Shown: one piece after another, positions 50,641 through 63,756 of the stretch | Numbering within the stretch: the first letter of the stretch is position 1 | Layout: each line of letters starts with the position of its first letter | DNA from: Stenotrophomonas sp. 704A1 | GTDB lineage: Bacteria; Pseudomonadota; Gammaproteobacteria; Xanthomonadales; Xanthomonadaceae | Assembly: GCF_030549525.1 (NCBI RefSeq) | Contig: NZ_CP130831.1 | Span: 1,885,501 to 1,949,500 of the forward strand | DNA: 64,000 nt | Reading direction: 5' to 3' | The notes under the pieces: generated by a model | What the model saw: only the letters and a program-made list of their open reading frames with translations | What the model was told of the DNA's origin: nothing | Databases searched by the model: none | Position numbers and translations under genes: made by a program

Positions 50641-51351
50641 TTAAAATTCTTCGCCGCGCCGCATGATGGCACCGCCGACAACGCGTCCAGCGACGTGAAG
50701 CGTGTCGATCTCGTCCGTGGGTAACACCGCGCTTTGGTACTTTGTGTTGGTGCTTACGATGTGCAATCCATTAGGCAGCATTTGCAATCGTTTCACCATG
50801 GTGTAGCCGTTGAGATTTATCAGGTAAACGCCGTCGCCGTCGAAGTAATTGCGGGCGGTGTCGACCATCATCACATCACCCGTTCGGATATCCGGGTACA
50901 TGGAATCCCCATGCACTGTGATGAGTTGAATGCGACCTTCCTCTGGAAGAAATCCGATCTGGCTTCGCACCTGCCACTCAGCGATATCAACCTCGCGAAG
51001 TACTGCAGGGAAGTCTTGATTCACTACGCCACCTCCGCCGGATGCCTGACCTTCCATCATGTGGAAGCGAACATACCCGGGGGGAATCTCAGGCGGGGAG
51101 ACTGCCGGTCGCGTTGCCGCCTCTCCACGCATAGGCAGCTCACCATACAGGAGCCAGCGCGGCCGAACAGCTAGCGTGGAGCAGATGCTCTCAACAACGT
51201 GGGCCTTGATGTTCTCGGGCTGCACCTTCCCCTCGGTTTGCCACTGACTCACCTGGCCCTTGGTGGTGCCGGCGAGGGTGGCAATCTCTTGGAGTGAGCG
51301 GCCGGACTCACGTACAGCTAGAGCCATGCGGGCGGCGAATGTGTCTCTCAT
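50641..51351 (-). CDS. CI-like repressor with S24 peptidase domain
   Basis: 236 residues. N-terminal XRE HTH (residues about 5-60: QEIATLAGTTKGQVSQWQTEGK), linker, and C-terminal LexA/CI peptidase fold with Ser150 (HGDSMYPDI) and Lys187 (YTMVKRLQM), so RecA-stimulated self-cleavage is possible. The usual Ala-Gly or Cys-Gly cleavage dipeptide is not seen in the linker (75-110). The start codon overlaps the first right operator, which implies autoregulation. Divergent from the Cro-like gene. Confidence 0.93.
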   Translation of the reverse strand: MRDTFAARMALAVRESGRSLQEIATLAGTTKGQVSQWQTEGKVQPENIKAHVVESICSTLAVRPRWLLYGELPMRGEAATRPAVSPPEIPPGYVRFHMMEGQASGGGGVVNQDFPAVLREVDIAEWQVRSQIGFLPEEGRIQLITVHGDSMYPDIRTGDVMMVDTARNYFDGDGVYLINLNGYTMVKRLQMLPNGLHIVSTNTKYQSAVLPTDEIDTLHVAGRVVGGAIMRRGEEF

Positions 51352-59781: not shown

Positions 59782-60048
59782 TAGAGGCGGAATGGCCGAG
59801 CTGATGATGGCTTTGACGAGTTCAGGGGAGATCATGGTTTCCATGGTGGGGCTGTTTCCTCTTGTGAGTTATATAGGTACCGAATCAGGTTCGGTCCGCC
59901 TTTCGGGTGTACGTGTACCGAAACGGTGAGCGCTGATTCATAGGGTGTCTCGCCCTTGCTGGCTGCTCCACTTCCGCGATTTCCGCCGGCGCGTGCATCG
60001 TCGGCGAGGCCCCACCGCCATTCCACTTGCGGAATTTCCGCCCCGACT

Positions 60049-60531
60049 ATGGCCAAGACCAAACCAGCACGGATGCCGCCGCTGACCCCAAAGCAGCAGC
60101 GGTTCGTCCAGGAATACCTGCAGGACCACAACGGCACCCAGGCGGCCATCCGCGCTGGGTATAGCGACAGGACGGCGAAGCAGCAGGGTTCCCGGCTCCT
60201 GAGCGAGCCGCGCATCCAGGCTGCGGTGCGCGCCGGCCAGCAGAAGGTGGCCAAGAAAGCCGAGGTGACCGTCGACAGCCTGATGGCCGAGCTGGAGCAG
60301 GCCCGGAAGCTGGCGCTGAAGGAGAAACAGGCCAGCGCGGCGGTCACCGCCACGATGGGCAAGGGGAAGCTGGCCGGCCTGCTGGTGGAGAAGCACAAGC
60401 ACAGCGGCGCGATCGGCACCTACGACCTGAGCAAGCTTTCAGACCATGAACTCGACCGCCTTGAACAGATCCTCGGTCCGGTTGCCGACGCTGGCGGAGA
60501 TCCGGGCGGAGCGGGCGAGGAGGGCGGCTGA
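60049..60531 (+). CDS. Terminase small subunit (TerS)
   Basis: 160 residues. Terminase_2-type HTH: LTPKQQRFVQEYLQDHNGTQAAIRAGYSDRTAKQQGSRLLSEPRIQAAV, followed by a helical oligomerisation part. It recognises phage DNA for packaging. The start MAKTKPARMP was chosen because upstream codons are low-complexity and without a ribosome site. It overlaps terL by 86 nt in another frame. Confidence 0.92.
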   Translation: MAKTKPARMPPLTPKQQRFVQEYLQDHNGTQAAIRAGYSDRTAKQQGSRLLSEPRIQAAVRAGQQKVAKKAEVTVDSLMAELEQARKLALKEKQASAAVTATMGKGKLAGLLVEKHKHSGAIGTYDLSKLSDHELDRLEQILGPVADAGGDPGGAGEEGG

Positions 60532-61975
60532 CGCCGAGCGCGAGCGCCTTGCCCGCGATGGCGAGGCGATCAGGCAGCGCTGCACCACACTGGCTGGCTT
60601 CATCCGTGAGGCATGGCCGGTTCTGGAGCCGGCACAGCCGTACGTGCACGGCTGGCACATCGATGTCCTGTGCCAGCACCTGGAAGCGATCACCGACGGA
60701 CAGATCACCCGGCTGCTGATCAACATTCCGCCGGGCACCATGAAATCGCTGGTGGCCAGCGTGTTCTGGCCGGCATGGGAATGGGGCCCGCGGGGCCTGC
60801 CGTCGATGCGCTACCTGACGACCTCCTATGCGGAGAAGTTCGTCAAGCGCGACAGCCGGCGCATGCGCGACCTGGTGCAGTCGGAGTGGTTCAGCAGTCT
60901 CTGGCCGGAGATCGAGCTGAACCGGTCGGGCGAGATGTCCTTCGCCAATTCGAAGATGGGAAACCGCGAGGGCATGGCGTTTGCCAGCCTGACCGGTGGC
61001 CGCGGCGACCGGGTCATCATCGATGATCCGCACTCGACGGAGACGGCGGAGAGCCCGGCGGAGCGCGCGACAACGACCCGCATCTTCCGCGAGTCGGTGC
61101 CCACCCGACTGAACAACCCGGCCACGTCTGCAATCGTGGTGATCATGCAGCGCCTGCACGAAAAGGACGTGTCGGGGCAGATCCTGGACCTCGGTCTCGG
61201 GTATGAGCACCTGATGCTGCCGATGGAGTTCGAGCCAGAGCGCCGCTGCCGGACGTCTATCGGGTTCGAGGATCCGCGCACTGAGGATGGCGAGCTGCTG
61301 TTCCCTGAGCGCTTCCCCCGCGCGGTGGTCGAGCGCGATAAGAAGATCCTGGGCAGCTACGCGGTAGCCGGCCAGCAGCAGCAACGGCCAACCCCGCGCG
61401 ACGGTGGCAAGTTCAAGCGGGAATGGTTCGAAGTGGTAGAGGCCGCGCCGGCGATCCTGGCGGCGCGGAAGGTCCGGCGATGGGACTTCGCTGCGACGGA
61501 TCCGAAGCAGCAGAAGACGAAAGGCGATCCCGACTACACCGTGGGGCTGCTGTTGGGCGAGGTCGGCGGCGTCTACTACGTGCTGGACATCGTCCGGGAC
61601 CGGCAGTCGCCGGCGGGCGTCGAGAAGATGCTGAAGAACACAGCCCTGCAGGACGGCCGAACCATCAAGGTTCGGATCCCGCAGGACCCTGGCGCCGCCG
61701 GCAAAAGCAATGCCGCGCACCAGGTGAAGCTGCTGGCCGGCTGGGACGTGAAGGCCGCGCTGGAGTCCGGATCCAAGGAGGTCCGCGCAACGCCGGTTGA
61801 AGCTCAGGCCGAGGCCGGAAACATCAAGCTGGTGAATGGCCCGTGGGTGGCGGCGTTCTTGGATGAGATCGCCGAATTCCCCAACGCAAAGCACGACGAC
61901 CAGGTGGACGCGCTTTCGGGCGCTTTCGCTGAGCTGGTCACCGGCAGCACCTACAACCTGGGGAACGCGCTCTGA
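60446..61975 (+). CDS. Terminase large subunit (TerL)
   Basis: 509 residues. ATPase: Walker A-like NIPPGTMKS (about 93-101), Walker B RVIIDDPH (189-196), and a C-terminal RNase-H-type nuclease (WDFAATDPKQQ, then a late acid in KHDDQVDALSGAF). The motor translocates DNA into the head. The N-terminal 60 residues overlap TerS coding sequence and include a charged helix. One base is shared with the portal gene start. Confidence 0.95.
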   Translation: MNSTALNRSSVRLPTLAEIRAERARRAADAERERLARDGEAIRQRCTTLAGFIREAWPVLEPAQPYVHGWHIDVLCQHLEAITDGQITRLLINIPPGTMKSLVASVFWPAWEWGPRGLPSMRYLTTSYAEKFVKRDSRRMRDLVQSEWFSSLWPEIELNRSGEMSFANSKMGNREGMAFASLTGGRGDRVIIDDPHSTETAESPAERATTTRIFRESVPTRLNNPATSAIVVIMQRLHEKDVSGQILDLGLGYEHLMLPMEFEPERRCRTSIGFEDPRTEDGELLFPERFPRAVVERDKKILGSYAVAGQQQQRPTPRDGGKFKREWFEVVEAAPAILAARKVRRWDFAATDPKQQKTKGDPDYTVGLLLGEVGGVYYVLDIVRDRQSPAGVEKMLKNTALQDGRTIKVRIPQDPGAAGKSNAAHQVKLLAGWDVKAALESGSKEVRATPVEAQAEAGNIKLVNGPWVAAFLDEIAEFPNAKHDDQVDALSGAFAELVTGSTYNLGNAL

Positions 61976-63756
61976 TGGGCAAGCTCGCACAAATCAAAGA
62001 CGGGCTGGTCAATCTGGTGGCCAACCTGGGTACGCCGCGCGACAAGGCGGCCTCGACGTTCTACGGCATTCCGACCCTGTCGGAGCAGGAGGCAGACAAC
62101 GCCTACCGCGGCACCTGGCTGGCGCGGAAGGTGATCGACATCCCGGCGATGGACAGCTGCCGGAAGTGGCGCGGTTGGAGCGCCGATCAGGCGAACATCA
62201 CCGCGATCGAGGGTGAGGAAAAGCGGCTGGGCCTGCAGCAGAAGCTGCTGGAAGCACTGATCCGTGCGCGCCTCACCGGCGGAGCCGCGCTCTACATCGG
62301 TACCGGTCACTCCGATCCGATGCTGCCGCTGAAGCCTGAGTCCTTGGGCAAGGCCGGCATCCGTCATCTGAACGTGCTGTCGAAGCGCGTGCTCCAGGCG
62401 GGTGAGTTGGACCGCGATCCCGAGTCGCCGGGCTATGGTCGACCTGCGTTCTACACCCTGAGCAGCGGCACCGCCGGGCAGTTGCAGATCCATCCATCAC
62501 GGCTGGTGATTCTGCAGGGCGCGGTGAGGCCCGACCCGGAACTGGACACCAGCAACGGTTGGGGCGACTCGGTCCTGTTGGCGATCAGCAAGGCGATCAA
62601 GGACGCCGACGCCAGCGCTGCGAACATCGCCTCTCTGGTGTTCGAAGCGAAGGTCGATGTGATCAAGATTCCGAACTTCATGGCGCAGCTGGCCGATCCG
62701 GGCTACGAGGAAAAGGTCCTCAATCGGCTGCAGCTGGCTGCGATGGCCAAGGGGATCAACGGCACCTTGGTGATGGACGCCGAGGAAAACTACGATCAGA
62801 AGCAGCTCCAGTTCGGCGGCCTGGTCGACCTGCTGATGGGCTTCATGCAGCTGGTGTCGGGTGCTTCGGACATCCCGATGACCCGCCTGCTGGGCCAGTC
62901 GCCTGGTGGTCTGAACGCCAGCGGCGAGAGTGACCTGCGGAACTACTACGACCGCATCAGCAGTAACCAGGAGCTGGTGCTGCAGCCGGCGCTGCAGGTT
63001 CTGGACGAGTGCCTGATCCGCTCGGCGCTCGGTAGCCGGCCGGCCGAGGTGTTCTACAACTGGCGCAGCCTGTGGCAGACCACTGACAACGAACGCGCGG
63101 GAATTGGCAAGACCACTGCAGAGACCATCAAGACCATCTCCGAAACGCGGCTGCTACCGGATGAGGTGATGTCCACGGTGGCGGTGAACATGCTGACTGA
63201 AGCCGGCGTCGCACCGGGCCTGGAAGCCGAGATGCTGAAGTACGGCGAAGCCACCCCGCAGAGCGACGAACAGGACGACGACGAGCAGCGCGCCGCTGCA
63301 ACGCCGGTGAAGGACGCCCAGCCCCGTTCGCTGTATGTCAGCCGCAAGGTAGTGAATGCCGACGAGATCGCGGCTTGGGCGAAGGAGCAGGGCATCGGAG
63401 AGCTGCAGCATGACCTGCATGTCACCGTCGCCTACTCGCGCCAGGCCTTCGACTGGATCAAGGCCGGCAACGCCAACGAGTGGAGCAACGGCGGCAAGGA
63501 CGAGCTGGCCATCCCCGAGGGCGGCCCGCGCGCGGTTGAGCCGTTGGGTGGTATGTCGGCGGTGATCCTGTTCGCGTCGGCGCAGCTGTGCTGGCGGCAC
63601 GAAAGCATCATCCGCGCGGGTGGGTCGCACGATTACCCGGATTACACCCCGCACATCAGCCTGACGAAGGCGACTGTCGACCTGTCGAAGGTCGAGCCCT
63701 ACCGCGGCCGCATCGTGCTGGGCCCGGAAATCTTCGAAGAAATTCGAGAGGACTGA
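61975..63756 (+). CDS. Portal protein fused to Acb1-like 2H phosphoesterase (anti-CBASS) domain
   Basis: 593 residues. The first 425 are a DUF1073-type portal (YGIPTLSEQEADNAYRGTWLARKVIDIPAMD, SGASDIPMTRLLGQSPGGLNASGESDLRNYYD). After an acidic linker (TPQSDEQDDDEQRAA) comes a separate domain, about 451-593, with two His-x-Thr/Ser motifs, HVT (482-484) and HIS (560-562), each in a beta strand, as in 2H/LigT phosphoesterases. T4 Acb1 uses the same motifs to degrade CBASS cyclic nucleotides. Portal function is secure; anti-CBASS activity is inferred from the motifs and the family name. Confidence 0.9.
   Translation: MGKLAQIKDGLVNLVANLGTPRDKAASTFYGIPTLSEQEADNAYRGTWLARKVIDIPAMDSCRKWRGWSADQANITAIEGEEKRLGLQQKLLEALIRARLTGGAALYIGTGHSDPMLPLKPESLGKAGIRHLNVLSKRVLQAGELDRDPESPGYGRPAFYTLSSGTAGQLQIHPSRLVILQGAVRPDPELDTSNGWGDSVLLAISKAIKDADASAANIASLVFEAKVDVIKIPNFMAQLADPGYEEKVLNRLQLAAMAKGINGTLVMDAEENYDQKQLQFGGLVDLLMGFMQLVSGASDIPMTRLLGQSPGGLNASGESDLRNYYDRISSNQELVLQPALQVLDECLIRSALGSRPAEVFYNWRSLWQTTDNERAGIGKTTAETIKTISETRLLPDEVMSTVAVNMLTEAGVAPGLEAEMLKYGEATPQSDEQDDDEQRAAATPVKDAQPRSLYVSRKVVNADEIAAWAKEQGIGELQHDLHVTVAYSRQAFDWIKAGNANEWSNGGKDELAIPEGGPRAVEPLGGMSAVILFASAQLCWRHESIIRAGGSHDYPDYTPHISLTKATVDLSKVEPYRGRIVLGPEIFEEIRED

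Follow-up and report, generated by a model that had tools for sequence, protein, structure and literature searches.

Background

The anti-CBASS protein Acb1 (CBASS, cyclic-oligonucleotide-based antiphage signaling system) is best described from the phages T4 (gene 57B) and FBB1 [PDB:7t26, 7t27], where it has a 2H phosphoesterase fold with an HxT/Hx[TS] tetrad. In T4 it is a free enzyme of 152 residues with a C-terminal lid; the roles of its residues (tetrad, base-stacking Tyr12 and adenine-reading Glu141) are taken from PMC9117128. A second point of comparison is the portal of Pam3 [PDB:8hds], according to PMC9382816 a virulent cyanobacterial myophage (Myoviridae). Its sequence counts 621 residues with an Acb1 part at 463-611, and 442 residues are modelled (aligned over 27-405), from which we infer that the domain is unmodelled, being flexible or cut off. 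Here we describe a prophage portal gene with a C-terminal Acb1-type domain in a stretch of 64,000 nucleotides from Stenotrophomonas sp. 704A1 [RefSeq:NZ_CP130831.1, positions 1,885,501 to 1,949,500], hereafter called the window. We consider it likely that this portal-borne, catalytically intact domain opens CBASS signals, and that it is an exchangeable cassette kept by selection on its catalysis.

Results and discussion

An Acb1-type domain at the portal C-terminus

The domain is a member of the Acb1 sequence and fold family. Residues 452-593 match the Pfam family PF23474 (Acb1) with an E-value of 1.6e-30 and a score of 106 bits (cut-off 27), a sequence search of the PDB matches the domain to FBB1 Acb1 (E 1.4e-5), and the predicted fold is that of a 2H phosphoesterase, closest to Acb1 and with LigT-type structures ranking next. 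As in the T4 and FBB1 enzymes (identity about 25-28%), the catalytic tetrad is intact (in the window's copy with Ser in place of the last Thr), and the alignment gives Y454, Y554 and E588 as the equivalents of T4 Tyr12, Phe107 and Glu141. The window's copy differs from the free T4 enzyme: it forms the C-terminus of a structural protein, it lacks the lid, and it has no aromatic residue aligned with Trp74. Similarity to the Pam3 portal spans almost the entire protein (E 1.4e-149), taking in the two-part architecture and the tetrad; identity is 46% (in an alignment of 14 sequences) and Pam3, unlike the window's protein, has a lid-like tail.

The first-pass annotation, made from the sequence alone, had proposed such a module at residues 451-593 (63325..63753) behind an acidic linker. 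The observation is real and was correctly spotted: the coordinates agree, the linker is present (SDEQDDDEQ), and an Acb1-type 2H domain with intact tetrad on the portal is supported by Pfam, the FBB1 match and the predicted fold. A fold unlike 2H phosphoesterases, which had been named as speaking against the proposal, did not occur in the prediction. The motifs HVT (482-484) and HIS (560-562) lie where they were placed, but their histidines are 78 residues apart instead of about 76. The proposed link by name between this portal family and Acb1 also holds, several relatives being called 'anti-CBASS protein Acb1 family protein' in NCBI or UniRef.

A chance occurrence of the motif pair was ruled out by the PF23474 E-value. 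A frameshift or fusion artefact was ruled out as well, since both Pfam domains are found in 119 of the 120 listed relatives (the best of a longer list, ranked by domain similarity); the remaining one, P0111, has PF23474 only. In these 120 relatives the linker (residues 421-449) shows a mean identity of 42%; portal residues 1-420 reach 74% and the domain reaches 81%. The gap between portal core and domain has a median of 42 amino acids in 99 fused relatives.

Conservation and selection

The tetrad, with Ser allowed for the last Thr, is kept in all of 218 unique domains that are joined to five kinds of partner (partial domains, P0180 and four open reading frames (ORFs) cut by contig ends were dropped). 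This set includes loci from a motif-seeded search; an artefact of motif seeding was ruled out by redoing the count on loci found without it, where the H/T/H positions are kept in 104 of 104 unique domains, followed by T (59 domains) or S (45 domains) as the fourth residue. The equivalent of Glu141 in these 104 domains is E in 84, A in 10, Q in 6, D in 2 and S and K in one each. Measured against the window, the domain has a median ratio of nonsynonymous to synonymous substitution rates (dN/dS) of 0.127 and the portal part one of 0.123 (23 comparisons, which are non-independent). The domain is under purifying selection, at a dN/dS equal to that of the portal.

Presence and absence among related portals

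The domain is dispensable for the own work of related portals. When viral loci are compared with the whole portal, 33 of the closest 36 carry it and three (L045, L047 and L048, with portal parts 87-91% identical) do not; the proteins of these three end directly after the linker, and the same protease gene starts 3 bases past the stop codon. Portals of the same family that end shortly past the portal part are also found at L240 and in Klebsiella RCIP0047 and Erwinia Papaline. Taking all 360 loci together, 251 ORFs have portal and domain (167 unique), 98 the portal only (75 unique, some cut) and 15 the domain only; given that each viral scan comprises the best 80 loci at most, and that two scans list best matches only, these shares are not population estimates.

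Closest pairs of opposite state share 98.1% (L046/L240), 97.4% (L250/L249) and 95.4% (L022/L045) portal identity. For L046/L240 and L022/L045, DNA similarity breaks off within the linker and returns 6-7 bases short of the stop codon (downstream DNA 95% and 93%); the members of each pair thus differ by a sharply bounded segment of about 440 bp. In the remaining four pairs of this comparison the 5' side is shared, with downstream DNA unlike or only weakly alike. A quick tree was built from 130 portal cores, 99 carrying the domain and 31 lacking it. Along this tree, domain presence changes 23 times, against a mean of 28.1 (minimum 22) for shuffled labels; one of 200 shuffles was as low, so presence follows the portal tree only slightly. 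For this tree, portals with incomplete profile coverage or contig-end cuts were dropped and 90% clustering within each state reduced 213 rows to 130. Thirteen records that lack the fused domain yielded no other Acb1, though the records may be fragments and no control genome gave a match. A cost of the enzyme could help explain losses of the module: in PMC12657218, Acb1 from a plasmid lowered colony formation with Panoptes, and deletion of T4 acb1 had no effect on Panoptes defence.

These comparisons bear on the idea that the domain is a structural or DNA-handling part of the portal, its histidines being kept for folding. Such a role would fit a domain that is fused to a structural protein and would be turned towards the packaged DNA. 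We nevertheless regard it as very unlikely: domain-less portals of 95-98% identity exist, and the same protease gene follows at a distance of 3 bases; the part-modelled Pam3 portal indicates that the domain is probably not an ordered part; and a tetrad kept throughout five kinds of partner would be unexpected for a structural element.

Exchange between portals

Portal and domain identity are weakly correlated in 99 fused proteins (Spearman 0.20, or 0.18 with pairwise alignments; none of 200 permutations was as high under either identity measure). Domains are at least 80% identical on portals of at most 55% identity in 11 of 4851 pairs, and the reverse (portals at least 80%, domains at most 60%) holds for 5 of 4851. 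Domains 88-96% identical occur on portals 43-52% identical, examples being L193/L197 (domain 96%, portal 44%) and L195/L189 (91% and 43%). At DNA level, a block of about 410-460 bp over the domain aligns in L195/L189, L162/L161 and L153/L121, the adjoining portal DNA being unaligned or aligned in short pieces. L193/L197 have about 730 bp in common, the portal's end included, and L186/L187 align across the whole region. Cassette exchange between portals is the simplest reading, and related phages seem to insert, delete and exchange the domain at the portal C-terminus.

Other partners and free copies

Coupling of Acb1 to head-assembly proteins has occurred repeatedly: the same domain and tetrad are found in head-gene modules on Mu-type portals (PF06074) and on two families of head protease. 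On Mu-type portals the domain is C-terminal (L118 and near copies, L191 and L068). These fusions were rare in one viral scan (3 of 80 loci, near copies of the query); in a second Mu-type scan 3 of 3 loci were fused, their ORFs having identical scores. In contrast to the window's portal, the domain is N-terminal in protease fusions. It precedes XkdF-type head-maturation proteases (PF14550) in 41 of 120 listed proteins and DUF2213-type proteases (PF09979) in 2 of 120 (P0222 and P0235, the former confirmed as phrog_530); at L181 the protease fusion lies amid head-morphogenesis, scaffold and major head genes. The DUF2213 fusions match the family of the protease downstream of the window's portal, and the domain may have crossed the gene border. 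A protease-fusion query retrieved one locus from viral contigs, matched over the domain alone, and 0 of 1329 records of named phages that covered 80% of the query, leaving no named phage with this fusion.

On a tree of the domains the partner changes 14 times, against a mean of 29.0 for shuffled labels. Weak support was obtained for 37 of 66 inner branches (the well-supported ones force 3 changes for the protease group), and for this reason we claim repeated coupling and not a number of origins.

One further protein, P0183 (553 amino acids), combines PF03496 (ADP-ribosyltransferase), PF14550 (protease) and PF23474 (Acb1) in precomputed Pfam matches, possibly placing two host-directed enzymes on one head protein.

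Free copies are represented by T4 57B, gp129 of Roseobacter phage DSS3P8, RcXuper and Edwardsiella phage ZHS, in the last of which the gene lies between terminase and portal. Both gp129 (L004:5989-6441, 150 amino acids) and the ZHS protein (L005:2116-2715, 199 amino acids) are annotated as 'prohead protease', although the Pfam matches of the latter are to Acb1 and LigT-type families alone; probably the name was carried over from Acb1-protease fusions. T4 acb1 adjoins ipI, which encodes an internal virion protein, near head and tail completion genes (L007:5592-7955), so that free Acb1 too is found among morphogenesis genes. The domain matches PHROG 755, a family that bears the name 'RNA ligase', and T4 57B is called the same in its RefSeq record; under such names Acb1 is hidden in phage annotation.

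Gene context and host distribution

Coordinates are provided in Table 1. The portal assignment is supported by the Phage_portal_3 and TIGR01555 profiles and by the position between terminase and the head protease and major head protein genes. The prophage also has replication genes, together with genes for a tape measure and for a lambda J-like tail protein; the window is part of a single contig of 4.69 Mb, and the nearest named relatives, among the matches listed, are from Stenotrophomonas.

Table 1. Features of the portal gene and its surroundings, with positions counted from the first nucleotide of the window
Feature	Position	Strand	Evidence
Portal gene with C-terminal Acb1 domain	61975..63756	+	593 aa + stop; phrog_146 portal E 3.6e-144; TIGR01555
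Phage_portal_3 (PF06381) part, residues 39-386	62089..63132	+	Pfam E 3.5e-107
Linker, acidic, poorly conserved, about residues 427-449	63253..63321	+	Sequence; identity among relatives
Acb1-type 2H phosphoesterase domain, residues 450-593	63322..63753	+	Pfam, FBB1 Acb1 sequence match, predicted fold
Tyr454, aligned to base-stacking Tyr12 of T4 Acb1	63334..63336	+	Alignment
First catalytic motif HVT, His482 and Thr484 (T4 His44, Thr46)	63418..63426	+	Alignment
Second catalytic motif HIS, His560 and Ser562 (T4 His113, Thr115)	63652..63660	+	Alignment
Glu588, aligned to adenine-reading Glu141 of T4 Acb1	63736..63738	+	Alignment
Next gene, DUF2213-type head-maturation protease, 400 aa	63760..64000, continues past window (L002:260-1462)	+	phrog_530 E 3.2e-77
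Terminase large subunit	60446..61975	+	PF17289 Terminase_6C
Terminase small subunit	59956..60531	+	PF03592
CI-like repressor of the prophage	50641..51351	-	phrog_4, phrog_6201

Within 395 genomes of the host family, this portal is present in 10 and carries the domain in all 10; an eleventh genome (G329) has the domain on a Mu-type portal. Two of 398 genomes of the phylum were above the cut-off, the window's own and G696, both with fused portals. Weak PF23474 matches below the cut-off at G539:C6:440711-441070 (L446) and G543:C1:2596600-2596965 (L447), in frames of 191 and 196 amino acids, are possibly distant free-standing relatives of Acb1. In an uncultured Roseovarius [GenBank:OX638333.1] the domain is encoded at two loci (L198 and L199) of the same chromosome, separated by about 47 kb, which are perhaps two adjacent prophages. 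A CD-NTase (cGAS/DncV-like nucleotidyltransferase, PF18144) was above the cut-off in 33 of the 395 family genomes. PADLOC gave no result for 5 proteins.

Substrate, timing and place of action

In the reading that we favour, a flexible acidic linker would carry the Acb1-type 2H phosphoesterase on the portal. Late in infection, during head building, many portal subunits (both free and in proheads) would act as enzymes and open CBASS cyclic di- and trinucleotides, so that suicide effectors of the host would be held off until particles are complete. The cassette would be inserted, deleted and exchanged at the portal C-terminus, with selection on its catalysis retaining it. The window's domain likely cleaves CBASS signals; late expression, this cleavage and a benefit against CBASS are what we infer.

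Several observations weigh against this reading. The portal protein ends with EEIRED, before the lid (T4 residues 145-152, with Trp147), and by sequence alignment no aromatic residue aligns with Trp74, a Phe or Leu lying at least two residues away (L524 here). Four of the 120 closest relatives listed show departures at key positions (T484M in P0056, S562G in P0118, Y454C in P0115 and E588K in P0035). Co-occurrence with CD-NTase is not significant (2 of 11 domain-bearing against 31 of 384 other family genomes, Fisher P 0.23), and the own genome has no PF18144 match. T4 Acb1 acts early, according to PMC11722364, whereas the portal is presumably made late. Finally, the domain would lie inside the finished capsid, which would restrict any action to copies synthesised within infected cells.

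Given the missing lid and the lack of an aromatic residue aligned with Trp74, specificity may differ from that of T4 Acb1, and the domain might be a working 2H phosphoesterase with another substrate (for example RNA ends bearing 2',3'-cyclic phosphates, or some other nucleotide signal), serving RNA processing or a different defence. The 2H superfamily holds several RNA-end enzymes, LigT-type structures come next in the fold comparison, and the matching PHROG bears the name of an RNA ligase. We regard this alternative as unlikely. A Trp within 15 residues after the Glu141 equivalent is found in 78 of 176 unique domains, so the lid is not family-wide, and we take lid and Trp74 as accessory features of T4/FBB1-type Acb1 and not as family-defining.

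Portal C-termini point into the capsid. As 8hds has 12 chains of this protein, the window's portal would by analogy form a dodecameric ring in the virion, and the estimate of about twelve copies per particle in the first-pass annotation is plausible. Its claim that the prophage 'delivers' the enzyme is not supported: the domain seems flexible or removed in 8hds, its end of the protein is turned inwards, and nothing shows entry into the cell with the DNA. The absence of 8hds among the best 50 of 112 fold matches and the 50 entries shown in a second fold listing is a weak sign. A full-length portal model (pLDDT, predicted local distance difference test, 57.8, and below 50 in the domain part) served only to find 8hds and its modelled length.

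It might be argued that the linker is cut in the prohead by the neighbouring head-maturation protease, and that free Acb1 inside the capsid is injected with the DNA to act early in the next cell. In favour of this route, the protease is encoded immediately after the portal, and the linker is not only acidic but also long and variable. The mature Pam3 portal model seems to lack the domain, and the protease of other phages is itself joined to it. However, no cleavage site was identified, flexibility explains the absence from the cryo-electron microscopy model equally well, and 12 copies per particle at most would be a small dose; we judge this route quite unlikely. With an inward C-terminus, an apparently unmodelled Pam3 domain and an adjacent protease, the cautious mechanism is that freshly made subunits act in the cytoplasm, and the bolder one is release in the capsid followed by injection.

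As a tentative and rather doubtful extension of the favoured reading, the anti-CBASS nuclease may have been tethered repeatedly to the head-assembly machine (two portal families and two protease families) because CBASS is triggered there. The alarm would be destroyed where and when it is made, the cassette would be swapped like a toxin tip, and in some phages a protease may free it in the capsid for co-injection. A trigger at head assembly is suggested by the report that a phage prohead protease interacts with a CBASS sensor (review PMC12409349).

Conclusions

The architecture of portal and Acb1 is already named in databases (Pfam and NCBI names). Our literature searches found no paper describing the fusion, and the word 'portal' is absent from the available text of PMC9117128. 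What is new here is that the domain behaves as a cassette and has repeatedly been coupled to proteins of head assembly; dispensability, exchangeability and the coupling to proteases and other portals go beyond the first-pass annotation. Acb1 has been called relatively rare (PMC11722364), and one search gave at least 902 protein clusters (90% identity) with an Acb1 domain in proteins of about portal length. With Acb1 hidden in a structural protein, a large share of the family may have been overlooked.

The portal seems to double as the carrier of an anti-defence tool. That Acb1 has been joined repeatedly to portals and head proteases suggests that CBASS is sensed and countered at head assembly, and natural matched pairs of phages with and without the module make the question of anti-CBASS activity in a virion protein directly testable.
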